Positions 3,438 through 55,729 of a stretch of 64,000 bases of DNA are shown here, one piece after another. The stretch's first letter is position 1; each line of letters opens with the position of its first letter. The stretch is from Alphaproteobacteria bacterium (lineage in GTDB: Bacteria; Pseudomonadota; Alphaproteobacteria; RF32; CAG-239), in assembly GCA_017467515.1 (NCBI GenBank), contig JAFUSU010000026.1, positions 1 through 64,000 on the forward strand, written 5' to 3'. Position numbers and translations under genes: made by a program. The notes under the pieces were generated by a model. That model was not told the origin of the DNA. It saw nothing but the letters and a program-made list of their open reading frames with translations, and searched no databases.

Positions 3438-5738
3438 TTATTTTGAACCTAAGCCACCGATTGTTTTTAACAAAAACGAAAAACTGAATTCATAATTATT
3501 TTCAACTTCCGGATCATTTGAGTTATAACGCAGGACATTAGCCGATAACGAAAAACATTCATCTTCATAAATTAAATTACCACCGTGTTCCAAAGAATAA
3601 TCCTGTTTTTCAGACAAATCCTGTCGATTATAAATACGTAAAGACCAATCTCGAGAAAGCTTTGCCGACAAAGAGGTATATAACTCTTTACGCCCTTTAC
3701 TATTCCCCTTACGAGAAGCTTCAGAATAGCCGTCATCGTTCAAAAAGATATATGAAACATAAGCTCTTAACATTTTCGGACCAATGCTCATTCCCAACTC
3801 ACTGTACTTCAGTTCAAAGTCGTTTCTATCCAAACGATAACGATAATTCAAATCAAAGAAATCACTGGGAGCTGCATTAATACGACCGACATAATCGCTT
3901 AAATGATCTTTTTCACCTAAACTGCGAGAAAAACTTGCATCATCCTGAAAATAATAGCTTTGCGCAATAAAGGCCTGCGTTCTTCCCAAAATGTTTCCAT
4001 AAGAACTCCAGTTAAAACCATAACTGACACGACTTCCCGTATCATTCCGATCATAACCGCTGTAACGATCGATATCCAAAACATTCGTATCGTCCAAATA
4101 AGCATTTTCGCTATCCTCATTCGGAATCTTAAATGTCTTATTACTGTCATTCGGAGCTAAAACACCAACGATAATCGGTTCAATAATTTGGCGACTATCC
4201 TCGTTAGCTTTAATAAAAGGCAATTTCCATTCGGCAGCCAGTTGAGGGAAAACACGCGTCGCCGTTCCCGTATAATATGTATTATTGATACGAGGATTCG
4301 TGCTGCTGCGCAGATAATCGTCAACATAATAAAAATCAGACTTAACGGACCCCACAAGTCTTATTTTTTCACCAAACGGACTGGTATAAGGCAAAACTAA
4401 TTCATTTATCATCGTTCCGCGTTGCGTTTTTGATGCTTCCCCATCATAAGCAACAGATGCAAAATTAAATGTATTTTTGGTATATAAACCATAATCCGTT
4501 AAATTATTATATTTTTCATATTCCATATAAGGGAAAACATAGGAACCGTTATACTTGCTTCTTCTTTTTGCCGTTCTTAAATCATAACTGATCATCTTAA
4601 AATAATACGTTTCAATATCCGCATAATCGCGCTTGTCAAAATATTCAAATTTAAGATTCGAAGTTAACCAAGCATCTGTTTTTTGGGGCAAAGACAAATC
4701 ACGCAAATATCTTGTATCCGAAACATATTTAGCATCCAAAGTCGCTAACCACTTTTCATTTATTTCATAGCGACCTTTTGCAAAAAGGTGTCCACGCTTT
4801 TTATCTTTATCGTCATCTTTCATAATGCTGCCGAATAAAGAATATTCTCCTTTTTCAAAAAATCCGTTATATGTAGCAATAGGAATAGCCCCTTTCTTGG
4901 TGGTGAGATAGGGCTTCAAGGTCAAATCAGAATGATCATCAATGGCCCAAAAATAACCGGGTTGAATATATGTGTCCAAATAATTTGACGATCCGTACGT
5001 TGGCATTAAAAAACCACTGCGACGCTTAACGGTCGGATCCGGATGAGAGAGAAAAGGGGTATAAAAAACAGGAACATTCTTAAGTTTTAAGAAGGCATTA
5101 TTATAATAAACATTTTTACCCTCTACGTCGTGCCGCATTTTTGTGGCTGTTATTTTCCACAAGGGTTCTTGTTTGGGATCTTTATCAACACAGCAATCAC
5201 AAGGTGTGTAAACGACATCATACATCACCTTATCTTTATTATCCAATGTCTTAAATTTTTTAGCCCAAATATGGCTTTCATCTCTCATTATTGCTTTGAG
5301 CTTTTTCAAGACACCTTTGCTCATTTTTTCTCGAAGCACCATCTCGTCGGCATACAAAACATTGTCGTTTGCATCGACCATACTGACATTTCCGCTCGCA
5401 ACAACTTCATCTTTATCTTGATAATAAACAACTTTATCCGCCTTTAAAGTTGCGTCATTGCGAATAATATAAACATCACCCAAAGCCGTAATTGTATTGC
5501 TTTTGCTTTCATTCTGCATTTCATTTGCGCTGAAATAAATATCATCTGTCTGACGTTCAATCGGACGAGGTGTAAACAAACCGGTGATTGTCGGATGAGG
5601 ATCAAATTGGACATAAGGAGAAGAAGATGTTTTGGTCCGAACTTCTCCGGCGACAGGCTGCTTTTCACCTGCACTTGAAAGGAGAGGCAACAATACGGCT
5701 ATTGCACTGAGTATGGGGCCTGTTATTTTATTAGACAT
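3438..5738 (-). CDS. lptD: LPS-assembly outer-membrane protein LptD
   Basis: LptD is the beta-barrel that inserts lipopolysaccharide into the outer leaflet of the outer membrane, with the lipoprotein LptE as plug. The 766-residue protein has a signal peptide (1-23), an OstA/LptA-like jellyroll (about 60-170) and a long barrel domain with many alternating aromatic strands to the C-terminus. Conserved cysteines are present: a CDCC cluster near residue 181 and one late Cys in the EDECFSLS segment, fitting the disulphides that LptD needs. It overlaps lptF by 8 bp and is followed by surA, so LPS transport and barrel folding are coupled in one operon. Confidence 0.95.
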   Translation of the reverse strand: MSNKITGPILSAIAVLLPLLSSAGEKQPVAGEVRTKTSSSPYVQFDPHPTITGLFTPRPIERQTDDIYFSANEMQNESKSNTITALGDVYIIRNDATLKADKVVYYQDKDEVVASGNVSMVDANDNVLYADEMVLREKMSKGVLKKLKAIMRDESHIWAKKFKTLDNKDKVMYDVVYTPCDCCVDKDPKQEPLWKITATKMRHDVEGKNVYYNNAFLKLKNVPVFYTPFLSHPDPTVKRRSGFLMPTYGSSNYLDTYIQPGYFWAIDDHSDLTLKPYLTTKKGAIPIATYNGFFEKGEYSLFGSIMKDDDKDKKRGHLFAKGRYEINEKWLATLDAKYVSDTRYLRDLSLPQKTDAWLTSNLKFEYFDKRDYADIETYYFKMISYDLRTAKRRSKYNGSYVFPYMEYEKYNNLTDYGLYTKNTFNFASVAYDGEASKTQRGTMINELVLPYTSPFGEKIRLVGSVKSDFYYVDDYLRSSTNPRINNTYYTGTATRVFPQLAAEWKLPFIKANEDSRQIIEPIIVGVLAPNDSNKTFKIPNEDSENAYLDDTNVLDIDRYSGYDRNDTGSRVSYGFNWSSYGNILGRTQAFIAQSYYFQDDASFSRSLGEKDHLSDYVGRINAAPSDFFDLNYRYRLDRNDFELKYSELGMSIGPKMLRAYVSYIFLNDDGYSEASRKGNSKGRKELYTSLSAKLSRDWSLRIYNRQDLSEKQDYSLEHGGNLIYEDECFSLSANVLRYNSNDPEVENNYEFSFSFLLKTIGGLGSK

Positions 5739-42208: not shown

Positions 42209-42910
42209 TTACTCATTTGCTTTTAACCACACCGGTTCTTTTAATTCTTTCTCCATAAACTCCAAATGAGCTTTTTCCTCATCTTCAGAAAGAGCAAAAA
42301 TGCGTGGTTCACGATATTTTCTCTCAATTTGACTTTCATCAATAAACTGTGTTGTTTTAATCTGGTTTTTCTGCTCACCGCCAAGCATTGTCGGCTCTTG
42401 TCCGCCCAATAATTCCAAATATACTTTGGCTAATAAATCAGCATCAAGCAAAGCACCATGCAGGGTACGTGCGCTGTTATCAACATTAAATCTTTTACAC
42501 AATGCATCTAAGTTGTTTCTTTGCCCCGGAAACAATTTACGTGCAATTTTAAGTGTATCTATAACACGCTCATTACCATAAGTAATCCGCCCTAATTCTT
42601 TCTGTTCAAAATTGATAAATTTCATATCAAACGGTGCATTATGAGCTACCAAAACAGCATCACCGACAAAATCTATCCACTCATCAACCTGCTCGGCAAA
42701 AGTCGGATAATCTTTTAATTTATCATAACTTAAACCGTGAACCTTAAAAGCATCATCGGGAACTTCACGTTGCGGATTAATATAACGATGAAATACAACC
42801 CCTGTCGGAATATGATTAATAAGTTCAACAGCCCCTATTTCAACCAACTTATCACCTGTTTCCGGATCCATACCTGTTGTTTCCGTATCAAAAACAATTT
42901 CTCTAACCAT
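42209..42910 (-). CDS. dnaQ: DNA polymerase III epsilon subunit (proofreading exonuclease)
   Basis: The 3'-5' exonuclease subunit of the replicative polymerase. The 233-residue protein has the DEDDh motifs: FDTETTGMDP (7-16), HNAPFDMKF (about 91-99) and HGALLDADLLA (about 155-165). A C-terminal tail for binding the alpha subunit follows. It overlaps coaE by 8 bp, the usual alphaproteobacterial coaE-dnaQ pair beside the origin. Confidence 0.95.
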   Translation of the reverse strand: MVREIVFDTETTGMDPETGDKLVEIGAVELINHIPTGVVFHRYINPQREVPDDAFKVHGLSYDKLKDYPTFAEQVDEWIDFVGDAVLVAHNAPFDMKFINFEQKELGRITYGNERVIDTLKIARKLFPGQRNNLDALCKRFNVDNSARTLHGALLDADLLAKVYLELLGGQEPTMLGGEQKNQIKTTQFIDESQIERKYREPRIFALSEDEEKAHLEFMEKELKEPVWLKANE

Positions 42911-43484
42911 TTATTTCACCCAATATTAATTTTATTTTATTTTCCAATTCTTGCAAACTGCAACCTGTATCAATAATTCTATCTACTAACTGGCATTTTA
43001 AATCTTTACTCATCTGCAAATTATATATATCAAAAAATTCTTTTTCAGTAATTTGATCTCTCTGCATAACTCTTTGTTTTTGAGTTTCTAAATCAACCGT
43101 TACGCCCCATACTTCAGAGCAATATCTGTTCCATCCTTTTTCAAATAAAAGCACAGCTTCTATAAATAAAAATCCTTTTTTTTCAGATACTTCTTTTATC
43201 CTATCCAAAAACCTTTTCTGTAAAAAAGGTTCTATGATATCTTCTAATTTAATAAGTTCTTTCTGATTTGAAAAAACAATGCGCCTTAGCAGCTTTTTAT
43301 CAATAATACCTTGTTTAAAAATACGTGGAAAAATATTTTTTAATTGATTCAAAAAATTATCATCTTCATATATTTTTGCCACTTCCTTATCAGCATCAAA
43401 AACTTCCATCCCATATTTTTTAAGAATATTGGTAATAGTTGTTTTACCACAACCTATAGCTCCCGTAATACCTATAATTTTCAT
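42903..43484 (-). CDS. coaE: Dephospho-CoA kinase
   Basis: Last step of coenzyme A synthesis. The 193-residue protein has the P-loop GAIGCGKTT (8-16), FDADKEVAKIY, and the family's EAVLLFEKGWN and QRVMQRDQITEKEF blocks. Normal length. First gene left of the proposed origin, transcribed away from it. Confidence 0.95.
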   Translation of the reverse strand: MKIIGITGAIGCGKTTITNILKKYGMEVFDADKEVAKIYEDDNFLNQLKNIFPRIFKQGIIDKKLLRRIVFSNQKELIKLEDIIEPFLQKRFLDRIKEVSEKKGFLFIEAVLLFEKGWNRYCSEVWGVTVDLETQKQRVMQRDQITEKEFFDIYNLQMSKDLKCQLVDRIIDTGCSLQELENKIKLILGEING

Positions 43485-43515
43485 TTATTTACTCAACTTC
43501 AAAAGGTTATGTTCT

Positions 43516-43547
43516 TTATCCACAAATCATTAACTTTTTGTGCATAA
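43516..43547. promoter_or_regulatory. Inverted pair of DnaA boxes
   Basis: TTATCCACA (43516-43524) and TGTGCATAA (43539-43547), facing each other with 14 bp between. The first is a perfect high-affinity box. Confidence 0.75.
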
Positions 43548-43617
43548 CTGACCTGTTTTTAAACCTTATAGCAAACAATACTCATTTTGTAAAATTTATT
43601 ATAACGACATACGCACA

Positions 43618-43626
43618 TGTGTATAA
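43618..43626 (-). promoter_or_regulatory. DnaA box
   Basis: TGTGTATAA, the complement of TTATACACA, fits the TTATNCACA consensus. Confidence 0.6.
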
Positions 43627-43701
43627 AAGAATTAACAAATATGAATAAAAATTTTTATTAAACATTTATCATTTTAAAGTTTACAAAATTTATATGTAAA
43701 A

Positions 43702-43717
43702 TTAACGATTCTTTAAC
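43702..43717 (+). promoter_or_regulatory. CtrA-like site with internal GANTC
   Basis: TTAA-N7-TTAAC matches the binding pattern of the alphaproteobacterial cell-cycle regulator CtrA, which blocks the origin in Caulobacter. The spacer holds GATTC, a GANTC site for CcrM methylation. In such AT-rich sequence a single match may be chance, so confidence is low. Confidence 0.3.
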
Positions 43718-43783
43718 TTTTTAAAAACAACTCACAACCTTATAAACAAAAATATAAATGAGCATAATTCTGTGCATATTTTT

Positions 43784-43792
43784 TTATCCACA
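43784..43792 (+). promoter_or_regulatory. DnaA box
   Basis: TTATCCACA, a perfect high-affinity box, with a one-mismatch partner TGTGCATAT five bases upstream (43771-43779) in the opposite direction. Confidence 0.75.
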
Positions 43793-43853
43793 TAATTAAC
43801 AAGAATATACAATAAACAACAATAATTTTTTAAATATATAGAGGTCAGATAAT

Positions 43854-43862
43854 TGTGCATAA
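43854..43862 (-). promoter_or_regulatory. DnaA box near the rho promoter
   Basis: TGTGCATAA, complement of TTATGCACA, 29 bp before the -35 of rho. DnaA bound here could affect rho transcription. Confidence 0.65.
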
Positions 43863-43890
43863 AAAAGCTCTTGCGAATAATAATATTTAT

Positions 43891-43919
43891 TTGACAGTTC
43901 GTAATTTAAATCATATAAG
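43891..43919 (+). promoter_or_regulatory. Promoter of rho
   Basis: TTGACA (43891-43896), 17-bp spacer, TATAAG (43914-43919). The leader to the rho ATG would be about 70 bases. Confidence 0.75.
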
Positions 43920-43994
43920 CAAAGCATAAATATAATATATCTTCTCTATATTTATATATCATCTCTTTTTATCAATCAAACAACAAGGTAATTT

Positions 43995-45251
43995 ATGAAT
44001 TTAAAAGAACTCAAGCAAAAGTCTCCGACTGCCTTATTAAAGCAGGCTGAAGATTTAGGAATAGAAGATGCTTCTTCTATGCGTAAACAAGATTTAATGT
44101 TTGCTATTTTAAAACAATTAACCGATGGTGATGATACGGCTATTTGCGGTGAAGGAACCATTGAAGTTATGCCTGATGGTTTCGGATTTTTACGTTCTTC
44201 GGAATCAAACTATCTGGCCGGACCTGATGATATATATGTATCACCGGCACAGGTTAAAAAATTCGGACTTAGAACGGGCGATACGGTAGAAGGTGAAATA
44301 CGAGCTCCAAAGGATAATGAACGTTATTTTGCTTTAACTAAAATTAATACAATTAACTTTGATGATCCCGAAAAATCAAAACTCAGAGTTAATTTTGATA
44401 ACTTAACACCGTTGTATCCGACAGAAAAGTTAAATTTTGATATTATCTGTGGTGAAAAAGATTATACTTGTCGTGTTATTGATTTAATTTCTCCGCAAGG
44501 TAAAGGTCAGCGTGGGCTTATTGTTGCACCGCCGAGAACAGGTAAAACGGTTATGCTTCAAAATATTGCTCATGCGATAGCCGTTAATCATCCTGAAGCA
44601 TATTTGATGGTTTTGTTGATTGATGAACGTCCGGAAGAAGTAACGGATATGACGCGTTCCGTTAAAGGTGAGGTTATTTCTTCAACATTTGATGAGCCGG
44701 CAGCTCGTCACGTTCAAGTAGCTGAAATGGTTATTGAAAAAGCCAAACGCTTGGTTGAGAGTAAAAAAGATGTTATTATCTTGCTTGACTCAATAACCCG
44801 CCTCGGTCGTGCTTATAACACCGTTATTCCGTCATCAGGTAAAGTTTTAACCGGTGGTGTTGATGCAAACGCCCTGCAACGTCCGAAACGTATCTTAGGT
44901 GCTGCGCGTAATGTTGAAGAAGGCGGTTCTTTAACCATTATTGCTACAGCCTTGATTGATACCGGTTCACGTATGGATGAAGTTATTTTTGAAGAGTTTA
45001 AAGGAACAGGTAACTCAGAAATTATCTTGGATAGAAAATTAACCGATAAGCGCCTGTTCCCGACCATTGATATTACTCGCTCAGGTACTCGTAAAGAAGA
45101 ACTTTTGGTTGATAAAGCAACATTGTCTAAAATGTGGGTATTGCGTCGTGTATTGATGCAAATGGGTATGACTGACGGTATGGAGTTCTTGCTTGATAAA
45201 CTACAGCACAGTAAAGATAACCAAGACTTCTTTGATACCATGAACAGTTAA
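43995..45251 (+). CDS. rho: Transcription termination factor Rho
   Basis: Rho is a hexameric RNA helicase that ends transcription. The 418-residue protein has the N-terminal helical and cold-shock-type RNA-binding domain ([38 protein letters not shown]), Walker A PPRTGKT, the [10 protein letters not shown] block and the R-loop region. Normal length. It is monocistronic, with its own promoter and an intrinsic terminator eight bases after its stop. Confidence 0.98.
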
Positions 45252-49912: not shown

Positions 49913-51763
49913 ATGACAAATGAATATGATGTTATAGTCATCGGTGGTGGACATGCCGGATGTGAAGCATGCGCCGCCGCAGCAAGAACAGGTGCTAAAA
50001 CGGCACTTATAACACATAAGATTGCAACAATCGGTGAAATGTCTTGTAATCCGGCTATTGGTGGTCTTGGTAAAGGTCATTTAGTCAGAGAAATAGATGC
50101 CCTTGACGGATTAATGGCAAAAGTTATTGATAAAGCAGGTATTCAATTCAGAATGTTGAATTTATCAAAAGGCCCTGCTGTCAGAGGTCCTCGTGCACAG
50201 GCCGATAGAGATTTGTATAAAAAATATATGTTAGAAGCTCTGCAAGAGCAAAAAAATCTTGATTTAATTGAAGGTGCCGTAGAAGGATTGCTTTTTGACG
50301 ATAATAAAATAACCGGTATTACTCTTTCTGATAACACTGTATTTAAAGCAAAAGCTGTTGTTTTAACTTCCGGAACTTTTTTAAATGGAATAATGTTTGT
50401 CGGACATAAAACTTCTATAGGAGGAAGAATAGGAGATGTTTCTTGCACGGGTATAACACCGTATTTAAAGCAAATGGGATTAAAAGTAGGCAGATTAAAA
50501 ACGGGAACCCCTGCCCGATTAAACGGAAAAACCATTCATTGGGAAAAATTAGAAACGCAAGAAGGAGATAATCCTCCGCAACCTTTCTCTTATTTAACAA
50601 AAGAAATAAAAAATCCGCAAATTAAGTGCTATGTAACCCATACAAACGAGAAAACACATAAAATAATAAGAGATAATTTTTCTAAATGTGCTCTTTTTTC
50701 AGGATTAATAAAGGGTGTCGGACCGCGCTATTGTCCGAGTATTGAAGATAAACTGGTCAAGTTTGCAGATAGAACCAGTCATCAAATTTTTCTTGAACCG
50801 GAGGGCTTAAATACGGATGTTGTCTACCCGAACGGAATATCAACATCTTTACCGGCCGATGTACAGGAACAATTTATTCATACAATGGAAGGATTGGAAG
50901 ACGTTGAAATTTTGCGCTACGCTTATGCCATAGAATATGATTATGTTGATCCTCAGGAGTTAAATCACAACTTAGGATGTAAAAAAGTTAAGGGTTTATA
51001 TCTTGCCGGTCAAATAAACGGAACAACAGGGTATGAAGAGGCGGCTGCTCAGGGTTTAGTTGCCGGCATTAATGCCGCATTATATGCCGAAAATAAAGGT
51101 CGAGAATTTGTTGTTGATAGAAGTGAAGCATATATAGGTGTTATGATTGATGATTTAATCACAAAAGGTGTTGATGAACCCTACAGAATGTTTACTTCAC
51201 GTTCAGAATATCGCTTACTTTTGAGAGCGGATAATGCTGATGCACGACTGACGGAAAAAGGCTACCAAACAGGTTGTGTCGGAAAAGAAAGATACAGTGT
51301 ATTTAAAGAAAAATATGAGCAAATAGATAAATATAAACAGATATGCGATAATCTGTATATTTCGCCAAATGAACTAGAAAAGTACGGAATTAAGACTAAA
51401 AAAGACGGAACAAAGAGAACCGCTTTTAATGTTATGTCTTATGACACTGTTTCACGTGAAACAATAAACACGATTTGGCCGGAACTGAAAGAAATGCCGG
51501 CCGATGTTTATGAAGAAATTGAAATAGAAGCAAAATATGCAGGATACCTTAAACGTCAATTGGCAGACATAGAAGTTTTTAAGAAAGACGAAAATCTCAA
51601 AATAAGAGAAGATATTGATTATAGCAAAATAGGCGGTTTATCACGTGAGATGGTTCAAAAACTATCTAAAGTCAGACCGATAACTGTTGGTGAAGCTTCT
51701 CGTATTCCGGGAGTAACACCGGCAGCAATAACAGCAATTTTAGGATATATAGAAAAAAAATAA
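49913..51763 (+). CDS. mnmG: tRNA uridine-34 modification enzyme MnmG (GidA)
   Basis: FAD-dependent partner of MnmE. The start at 49913 ([16 protein letters not shown]) has TAAGG upstream; a TTG at 49871 is possible but lacks support. The 616-residue protein has the dinucleotide fold [13 protein letters not shown] (8-20), the two GidA signatures (GPKYCPS-type here [11 protein letters not shown]; and [17 protein letters not shown]), and a C-terminal helical domain. The codons for DTVSRETI near residue 515 contain a perfect parS palindrome. Confidence 0.97.
51448..51463. promoter_or_regulatory. parS site 1, inside mnmG
   Basis: TGTTTCACGTGAAACA, a perfect 16-bp palindrome matching the bacterial parS consensus. 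It codes for part of VSRET in MnmG. ParB (coded at 54,725) would bind here. Confidence 0.92.
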
Positions 51764-53325: not shown

Positions 53326-53952
53326 ATGGAAAATTTAATAGAAAAAATGAATGTTTCACGTGAAACAATTACAAAACTGAAAGCTTATGAAAAATCTCTA
53401 AAAGAGTGGCAAAATAAGTTTAATTTAGTTAGTAATAACTCACTGAACGACGCTTGGAACAGGCATTTTTTGGACTCTCTGCAACTAATGGAATATATTC
53501 CGGATGATGCAAAAACATTACTCGATTTGGGATCGGGGGCTGGTTTTCCGGCAATGGTTATCGCAATAGCTTCTGCTCAAAGACTGCCTGATTTAAAAGT
53601 AAGTTTGGTTGAGAGTGTCAAAAAAAAGACACTGTATTTAAACGCTGTTCGGGATCTATGCGGAGTTAATGTCAATATTGTGAACGATCGCATTGAAAAT
53701 ATTGATCAGCAAAAAGTTGATGTTATTACCTCTCGAGCAATGTGCAATTTAACAGATTTATTAAAATACGCATATCGCTTTACAACAAAAAAAACTACTT
53801 TAATTTTTCCAAAAGGAAAGAGTTATCAAGTTGAACTTGATAATGCAAAAAAATACTGGCACTTTGATTGTAAAATTAAACAAAATAAAATTTGCAGTGA
53901 AGGTGTTATCCTGTTAATCACTGATTTATCACCTCTTAAAGGAGTTAAATAA
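53326..53952 (+). CDS. rsmG: 16S rRNA 7-methylguanosine methyltransferase RsmG (GidB)
   Basis: RsmG methylates G527 of 16S rRNA. The 208-residue protein has the SAM motif LLDLGSGAGFPAMVIAI and the family's FNLVSNN and DAWNRHFLDSLQL blocks. The codons for NVSRETI (residues 9-15) contain the second parS site. The gene overlaps parA by one base. Confidence 0.96.
   Translation: MENLIEKMNVSRETITKLKAYEKSLKEWQNKFNLVSNNSLNDAWNRHFLDSLQLMEYIPDDAKTLLDLGSGAGFPAMVIAIASAQRLPDLKVSLVESVKKKTLYLNAVRDLCGVNVNIVNDRIENIDQQKVDVITSRAMCNLTDLLKYAYRFTTKKTTLIFPKGKSYQVELDNAKKYWHFDCKIKQNKICSEGVILLITDLSPLKGVK
53352..53367. promoter_or_regulatory. parS site 2, inside rsmG
   Basis: TGTTTCACGTGAAACA, identical to the site at 51448. 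It lies 1.4 kb before parB's partner gene parA, and within 10 kb of the proposed origin. Confidence 0.93.
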
Positions 53953-54731
53953 TGCCAAGAATAATTGCAATAGCAAACCGTAAAGGCGGTGTAGGAAAAA
54001 CAACGACAACCGTTAATATTGCCACGGCAATGGCTGCTACGGGAAAAAAAGTTCTCGTTGTTGATTTGGATCCTCAAGGGAATGCGTCTACCTCAATGGG
54101 AATCAATAAAAGAGGAAGAATGGCTTCTTCTTATGAGGTTTTATTAGGGGAAAAATCAGTTTCTGAAGCTGTTGTATGGACTGAAGTACGCAATTTTTCA
54201 ATTATACCTTCATCTCCTGATTTGGCAGGTGCTGAGGTTGAATTAATAGACTTGGAACACAGAGAATTTATGCTTAAAGAAGCTCTTGTAAAGGGTGCCT
54301 TAAATTATGATTATGTGTTAATCGACTGCCCGCCGTCACTGAGCTTGGTTACAATCAACGCATTAGTTGCGGCAAATGCCGTGATTGTTCCTCTGCAATG
54401 TGAGTTTTTAGCACTTGAGGGAATTACAGATTTAATAAAGAATATCAATATAATAAAGAAACGTTTTAACCCAACACTTGAACTTCAAGGTGTGGTTTTA
54501 ACAATGTACGACAAACGCAATAATCTTTCACAAATGGTTGAAGATGATGTAAGAAATTACTTTGGTAAAAAAGTCTATCAGACTGTTATTCCAAGAAATG
54601 TCAGAATTTCCGAGGCCCCATCACACGGAAAACCTGTACTGTTGTATGATTTCAGATGTCCGGGATCGCAGGCGTATATAAGCCTCACCGGTGAAGTTTT
54701 AAGAAGAGAAAAGGAATTGTTGGCATGCTAG
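53952..54731 (+). CDS. parA: Chromosome partition ATPase ParA
   Basis: ParA binds DNA in its ATP form and pulls ParB-parS complexes apart. The 259-residue protein has the deviant Walker A KGGVGKTTTTVN (10-21), DLDPQGNAS and DCPPSLSLVTINA. Short ParA without an N-terminal HTH, as in chromosomal types. Overlaps rsmG and parB. Confidence 0.97.
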   Translation: MPRIIAIANRKGGVGKTTTTVNIATAMAATGKKVLVVDLDPQGNASTSMGINKRGRMASSYEVLLGEKSVSEAVVWTEVRNFSIIPSSPDLAGAEVELIDLEHREFMLKEALVKGALNYDYVLIDCPPSLSLVTINALVAANAVIVPLQCEFLALEGITDLIKNINIIKKRFNPTLELQGVVLTMYDKRNNLSQMVEDDVRNYFGKKVYQTVIPRNVRISEAPSHGKPVLLYDFRCPGSQAYISLTGEVLRREKELLAC

Positions 54732-55729
54732 ATAACGAATTTGACATAAAAACAAAAGAAGAAATCAATCCGCATAAAAGGAAAAGTTTAGGGAGAGGCT
54801 TAGGTGCCTTGCTCGGTGATGATGATTTAGAAGAAGAAATATCCCTGACAGAGAACAAGAAAAACAACAATCCGACTTTGATTGATGTCAGTTTAATTAA
54901 ACCAAGTCGTTTTCAGCCAAGAACAGAGTTTGATGAAACAGCTCTTGATGCTCTGGCTCAGTCAATAAAAGACAAAGGCGTTTTGCAACCTTTATTGGTT
55001 CGCAAAACAGAATTCGGATATGAACTTATTGCCGGTGAAAGACGGTGGAGAGCGGCACAAAGAGCCGGATTGAACAAAGTTCCCGTTATAGAAAAAGAAC
55101 TTAAAGATGAAGAAGCATTAGAAGTTGCGTTAGTGGAAAATTTACTGCGTGAAAACCTGTCAGCAATAGAAGAAGCCGAAGCTCTGCAAAGATTAATGAA
55201 TGAATTTTCACACACACAGGAAGCTTTATCACAGGTTATCGGTAAATCCCGAAGCTACATAGCAAACACACTTCGTTTGCTTAATTTACCGGAAAAAATA
55301 AAAAATTACATTAAAGAAGGCAAATTAACTGCCGGACACGCCAGACAATTAATAGGTTTTGATAATGCAGAACAACTTGCGGAACAAATCATAAAAAAAG
55401 ATTTAAGTGTCAGAAAAGTTGAGGATTTGGTTGCTAAAATCAAAGCGGGTAAACCGGAAGAAAAGAAAAAAACACGATCAGAAGATGTTATAGACATTGA
55501 AAAAAGCCTTAATAAAAGTTTGGGATTAAGGATAAAGATAACCCCCAGCAAGCAAGGCGGTGGAAAAGTTGTTTTACAGTATGCATCTCCGGCAGAACTT
55601 GATATGATAATCGATATCTTAGAGCAAAAAAGAAATGTTCAAAGCACTGCAACTGTTGCGCCTGTTCCATTACAGGCATCGGCAGCTCCGGCAGGAAATG
55701 AAAAATTTTCAATTAAAATAGTAGACTAA
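54725..55729 (+). CDS. parB: Chromosome partition protein ParB
   Basis: ParB is a CTP-dependent DNA clamp that loads at parS. The 334-residue protein has an N-terminal GRGLGALLGD ParA-interaction segment, the CTP-binding ParB/Srx domain with IAGERRWRAAQRAG, the HTH (about 170-210, TQEALSQVIGKSRSYIANTLRLL) and a C-terminal dimerisation region (KVVLQYASPAELDMIIDIL). Overlaps parA by 7 bp. Confidence 0.97.
   Translation: MLDNEFDIKTKEEINPHKRKSLGRGLGALLGDDDLEEEISLTENKKNNNPTLIDVSLIKPSRFQPRTEFDETALDALAQSIKDKGVLQPLLVRKTEFGYELIAGERRWRAAQRAGLNKVPVIEKELKDEEALEVALVENLLRENLSAIEEAEALQRLMNEFSHTQEALSQVIGKSRSYIANTLRLLNLPEKIKNYIKEGKLTAGHARQLIGFDNAEQLAEQIIKKDLSVRKVEDLVAKIKAGKPEEKKKTRSEDVIDIEKSLNKSLGLRIKITPSKQGGGKVVLQYASPAELDMIIDILEQKRNVQSTATVAPVPLQASAAPAGNEKFSIKIVD

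Follow-up and report, generated by a model that had tools for sequence, protein, structure and literature searches.

The chromosome origins of Caulobacter and Rickettsia lie between hemE and COG1806/ppsR (PMC1914354), and those predicted for Rickettsia, Wolbachia, Ehrlichia and Anaplasma have few DnaA boxes and a variable number of CtrA sites, being mostly AT-rich, 383-620 bp long and, in some of them, set among rearranged neighbour genes (PMC1914354). In the 80 rho loci of named genomes from which the gene order of the class was taken, the usual arrangement, where the contig was long enough, is dnaQ-coaE-aroE-maf-ppsR, origin gap, hemE-(hemH)-rho-mnmE-mnmG, the gap measuring roughly 300-550 bp and lying at the divergence point between ppsR and hemE. 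No paper on the origin of the family studied here was among the matches listed in the open-access literature. The stretch of DNA analysed (the window) comprises 64,000 nucleotides of contig C19 in the draft genome of an uncultured alphaproteobacterium, one of 1,668,684 bases in 36 contigs. Its coaE-rho intergenic gap (43485-43994) is, as judged from sequence comparison, almost certainly a DnaA-dependent chromosome origin homologous by position to those of Caulobacter and Rickettsia; it is of an ordinary type and occupies the ancestral site, but its usual neighbours have been lost.

The gap is bordered on the left by coaE, for dephospho-CoA kinase (42903-43484, minus strand, TIGR00152), beyond which lies dnaQ, for DNA polymerase III epsilon (42209-42910, minus strand, TIGR01406), and on the right by rho, for the transcription termination factor (43995-45251, plus strand, TIGR00767). 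The NCBIfam cut-offs were passed by coaE, dnaQ, rho, mnmE and ParB. From their starts at 43484 (minus) and 43995 (plus), coaE and rho diverge around the 510 bp of the gap, the AT content of which (79%) is above that of the genome and of the surrounding kilobases (mostly 58-70%). No open reading frame of at least 100 aa was found in these 510 bp, and the Rfam search of the gap returned no RNA matches, in agreement with the first-pass annotation, made from the sequence alone, which had described the gap as AT-rich and non-coding.

Five exact TTATNCACA DnaA boxes are present, all within 347 bp (43516-43862). Two of them, TTATCCACA at 43516-43524 (plus strand) and TTATGCACA at 43539-43547 (minus strand), form the left and right halves of a conserved convergent pair with a spacing of 14 bp; the others are TTATACACA at 43618-43626 (minus strand), TTATCCACA at 43784-43792 (plus strand) and TTATGCACA at 43854-43862 (minus strand). 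The count of five exact boxes in the first-pass annotation was right, and the single near match that it added falls short of the five one-mismatch boxes found in the gap (43640, 43740, 43759, 43771 and 43872), of which the one at 43771-43779 (minus strand, ATATGCACA) is exact in three relatives. The rest of the 64-kb window contains no exact TTATNCACA box. Since 2.8 exact boxes turn up, scattered across the 64 kb, when the entire window is shuffled, the excess is one of clustering and not of number; the shuffled gap contains a mean of 0.09 boxes and at most 2 in 2000 trials. Genome-wide, 70 exact boxes were counted, as against 56 matches to the reversed pattern, so lone boxes are mostly background, and at the genome-wide density the Poisson expectation for a cluster of five boxes in 347 bp anywhere is about 1e-7. 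No equally dense cluster was found elsewhere in the 1.67-Mb draft genome.

The coaE-gap-rho arrangement, with coaE on the opposite side, is shared by 27 relatives, 26 from the family of the window and one (G032) from another family of the same taxonomic order, the gap measuring 418-624 bp. In the 28 gaps, the window's included, there are 85 exact boxes compared with 1.2 expected from shuffling, a count that, like every other made across the relatives, comes from related, non-independent sequences, in which counting by genus lessens the effect of kinship and does not remove it. The convergent pair is retained in 22 of the 28 gaps when up to one mismatch per box is allowed, and the loci L046 and L047 have only one exact box each. 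In the alignment, the left half of the pair (43516) is exact in 20 of the 28 genomes and the right half (43539) in 26, the boxes at 43784 and 43854 are exact at the same place in 13 and 14, respectively, and that at 43618 is not generally conserved, occurring at the same place in fewer than three. Because the coaE sequences of these genomes are mostly only about 40% identical, the conserved box pattern does not reflect mere recency of descent. As a separate observation, the coaE beside the origin evolves unusually fast, with 67% identity to that of the nearest relative and about 37-46% to the rest, and this low identity extends to genomes of the same genus, whereas their rho genes are 88-99% identical.

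Other elements of the gap include a predicted sigma-70-type promoter for rho (43891-43919, plus strand, TTGACA-17 bp-TATAAG), both hexamers of which are strongly conserved in the alignment, and a conserved AT-rich stretch between two boxes (43800-43853), which is a candidate unwinding element from the alignment; local duplex stability across the relatives revealed no common least-stable stretch, and 43800-43853 is not uniquely the least stable. The IHF motif is absent from the gap of the window and occurs 30 times in the 28 gaps, compared with 13.1 times in shuffles.

Neither of the borders typical of Cori, hemE or COG1806/ppsR, adjoins the gap, and its position is syntenic via the outer genes. 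Like the Cori of Caulobacter crescentus, the gap lies between a dnaQ-coaE side and a rho-mnmE-mnmG side (as seen in Brevundimonas, L140), and it also has DnaA boxes, TTAA-N7-TTAA sites of the CtrA type, AT-rich sequence and a length of about 400-600 bp. Unlike Cori, which is bordered by hemE and ppsR, the gap in the family of the window is bordered by coaE and rho, and in none of the 28 gaps does a CtrA motif overlap an exact DnaA box. The traits listed above for the predicted Rickettsia, Wolbachia, Ehrlichia and Anaplasma origins are shared with the window's origin; however, those origins keep the hemE border, whereas the window's genome has no hemE. None of the 32 genomes searched in the family, many of them with an estimated completeness of 99-100%, has hemE or ppsR, and the origin has therefore most likely stayed in place while its neighbours disappeared one side and the other, so that coaE and rho now adjoin it. 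States resembling intermediates are found in Bartonella (L102), where hemE is missing, and in SAR116 (L081) and Caedibacter (L085), where the interval from coaE to the gap shows no ppsR, maf or aroE; these three are reduced on one side only, whereas the family of the window is reduced on both. The first-pass view that the flanking genes are of the kind seen beside alphaproteobacterial origins thus agrees with the class order, in which the origin usually lies between ppsR and hemE, the inner genes being the ones lost here. The absence of hemE, which extends to G032, suggests that haem synthesis may have been lost in the lineage.

The GC skew, followed contig by contig in this draft, is -0.117 on C19 to the left of the gap and +0.108 to its right, and the best single change point of the contig is at 44041, with a support interval (three log units) of 43739-44165 that overlaps the gap. 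A skew minimum elsewhere had been named beforehand as an observation that would speak against an origin, and the contig-level skew instead turns at the gap itself. Change points were also placed on two contigs of other family genera, each analysed over its full length: that of G028:C1 (347 kb), at 89751 (88863-90614), overlaps the homologous gap, and that of G019:C4 (392 kb), at 189558, lies about 4.2 kb off the gap at about 193748-194222. The parS sites and parAB genes that the first-pass annotation had noted nearby are on the rho side, the parS sites 7.5-9.4 kb away (parAB 53952-55729, plus strand; parA 53952-54731, parB 54725-55729). The ParA-type ATPase scores below the NCBIfam cut-offs, and its assignment is based on its matches and on the adjacent parB. 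The two parS sites are exact 16-bp copies of TGTTTCACGTGAAACA on the plus strand (51448-51463 and 53352-53367); both lie within reading frames and not in intergenic DNA, the former inside mnmG and the latter inside the frame just upstream of parA. The gene gyrB is on the same side, although the "close" of the first-pass annotation amounts to about 20 kb, gyrB extending past the right end of the window to about C19:65.6 kb.

That the boxes might instead form a DnaA-regulated promoter or a DnaA-titrating site for rho and coaE, with replication starting elsewhere, draws on the conserved, promoter-like stretch ahead of rho, which adjoins the 43854 box within the gap. This reading is very unlikely given the sign switch of the skew at the gap and at the same locus in the two related contigs, the match to the gene order of class origins, the nearby parS sites and parAB, and a genome devoid of a competing box cluster. 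The best competing group comprises three boxes in 616 bp (C17:29613-30228) and, since it adjoins phage terminase genes, probably belongs to a prophage and is not a second origin. The probable prophage region itself (G000:C17:27334-30603; L171 7334-10603) has large- and small-terminase-like genes, with two tandem DnaA boxes 21 bp apart beside it (C17:30199 and 30220). An origin next to dnaA, as in many other bacteria, with the gap as its relic, has in its favor that dnaA (TIGR00362, 557 bits), the source of the genome's DnaA, sits at one end of contig C27, beyond which nothing is assembled. Nevertheless, the contig includes the region upstream of dnaA, in which the first exact box, at 4649, is more than 2.5 kb away; there is no marked skew minimum near dnaA, and a relic is unlikely to hold boxes at fixed positions in 27 relatives, so that this second reading is extremely improbable. 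Around 110 kb on C27 (G000:C27 near 110000, L169) the skew falls from positive values to just below zero, marking a possible terminus-side or inversion boundary. Equal box density at another place had likewise been named as evidence that would count against the gap, and neither the three-box group on C17 nor the 2.5 kb upstream of dnaA provides it. The call of a chromosomal origin, made at first from the boxes and flanking genes, is now supported at the sequence level by the box cluster, the skew change point, the synteny and the conservation in 27 relatives.

The gap also has an unusually clear set of predicted CtrA and CcrM control sites, which the first-pass annotation had missed. A full CtrA-type site, TTAA-CGATTCT-TTAA, is located at 43702-43716 (plus strand), where a CtrA motif is aligned in nine genomes, and contains a GANTC (CcrM) site at 43707-43711, where GANTC is aligned in 17. 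The TTAA-N7-TTAA motif occurs once in the gap of the window and 56 times in the 28 gaps, compared with an average of about 8 for the other spacings between 2 and 14 and 7.2 in shuffles, and GANTC occurs 67 times in the 28 gaps, compared with 17 expected. N7 sites common to at least three genomes fall at six alignment positions, and are therefore not one inherited copy. The genome of the window encodes CtrA (NF045991, 402 bits, cut-off 350), GcrA, and CcrM (N6_N4_Mtase and RAMA; best structure match CcrMI, 6pbd, E 1e-157). In 46 other origins of the class the N7 excess is weak, with 10 sites vs about 4 at other spacings, and CtrA motifs and binding have been reported as lacking at the Sinorhizobium meliloti origin (PMC4433202). 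In the rho tree, the deep branches of which have weak support, the family stands apart from Caulobacterales and groups among Rhodospirillales-like and sphingomonad lineages.

There is an even chance, in our judgement, that CtrA directly gates the origin through TTAA-N7-TTAA, with CcrM sites alongside, in this small-genome family outside Caulobacterales. The N7 excess could also come from another constraint, for example the phasing of AT-rich DNA with the helical turn or the binding of a different protein, a reading that is doubtful and yet has some weight, as the 11-bp period nearly matches one helical turn and site presence does not follow CtrA presence neatly. Exact N7 sites are missing from five of the 28 gaps, among them that of G031, which has neither a good CtrA match nor an N7 site, and those of G014, G017, G020 and G024, which have a CtrA match; because four of these five siteless genomes have a good CtrA match, gating is offered as a prediction. 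Against the other constraint, few of these genomes lack a good CtrA match, and the excess persists when each genus is counted once (27.2 vs about 3.8). Moreover, the N18 spacing, at the next helical turn, is not enriched (10 sites), by which helical phasing is not supported as the cause, and N7 is not enriched in stretches of 80-390 kb of the same genomes, so that the excess is not well accounted for by either helical phasing or base composition.

With the gap as the origin, DnaA would bind the boxes, especially those at 43784 and 43854 and the convergent pair on the coaE side, with the AT-rich DNA opening between or beside them. Bidirectional forks would then leave through coaE-dnaQ on one side and rho-mnmE-mnmG-parAB on the other, and segregation would come next, with ParB acting at the two parS sites, which lie 7.5-9.4 kb off. 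Less surely than the origin itself, phosphorylated CtrA probably blocks firing via TTAA-N7-TTAA, and methylation of GANTC by CcrM probably marks the replication state.

The locus would fix the replication start for a whole family known mainly as drafts, a start from which growth rates may be estimated from metagenome reads and gene orientation read against the forks. It also indicates that an origin can persist in place while its landmark genes, hemE and ppsR, disappear around it, and annotation rules based on those genes would therefore miss it. CtrA has been hypothesized to have controlled motility first and the cell cycle later (PMC8116508); if the predicted gating is true, CtrA control of the origin would predate this proposed late cell-cycle role or would have arisen more than once. 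This family now offers a way of testing whether CtrA acts directly on the origin only in Caulobacterales and some intracellular groups or more widely.
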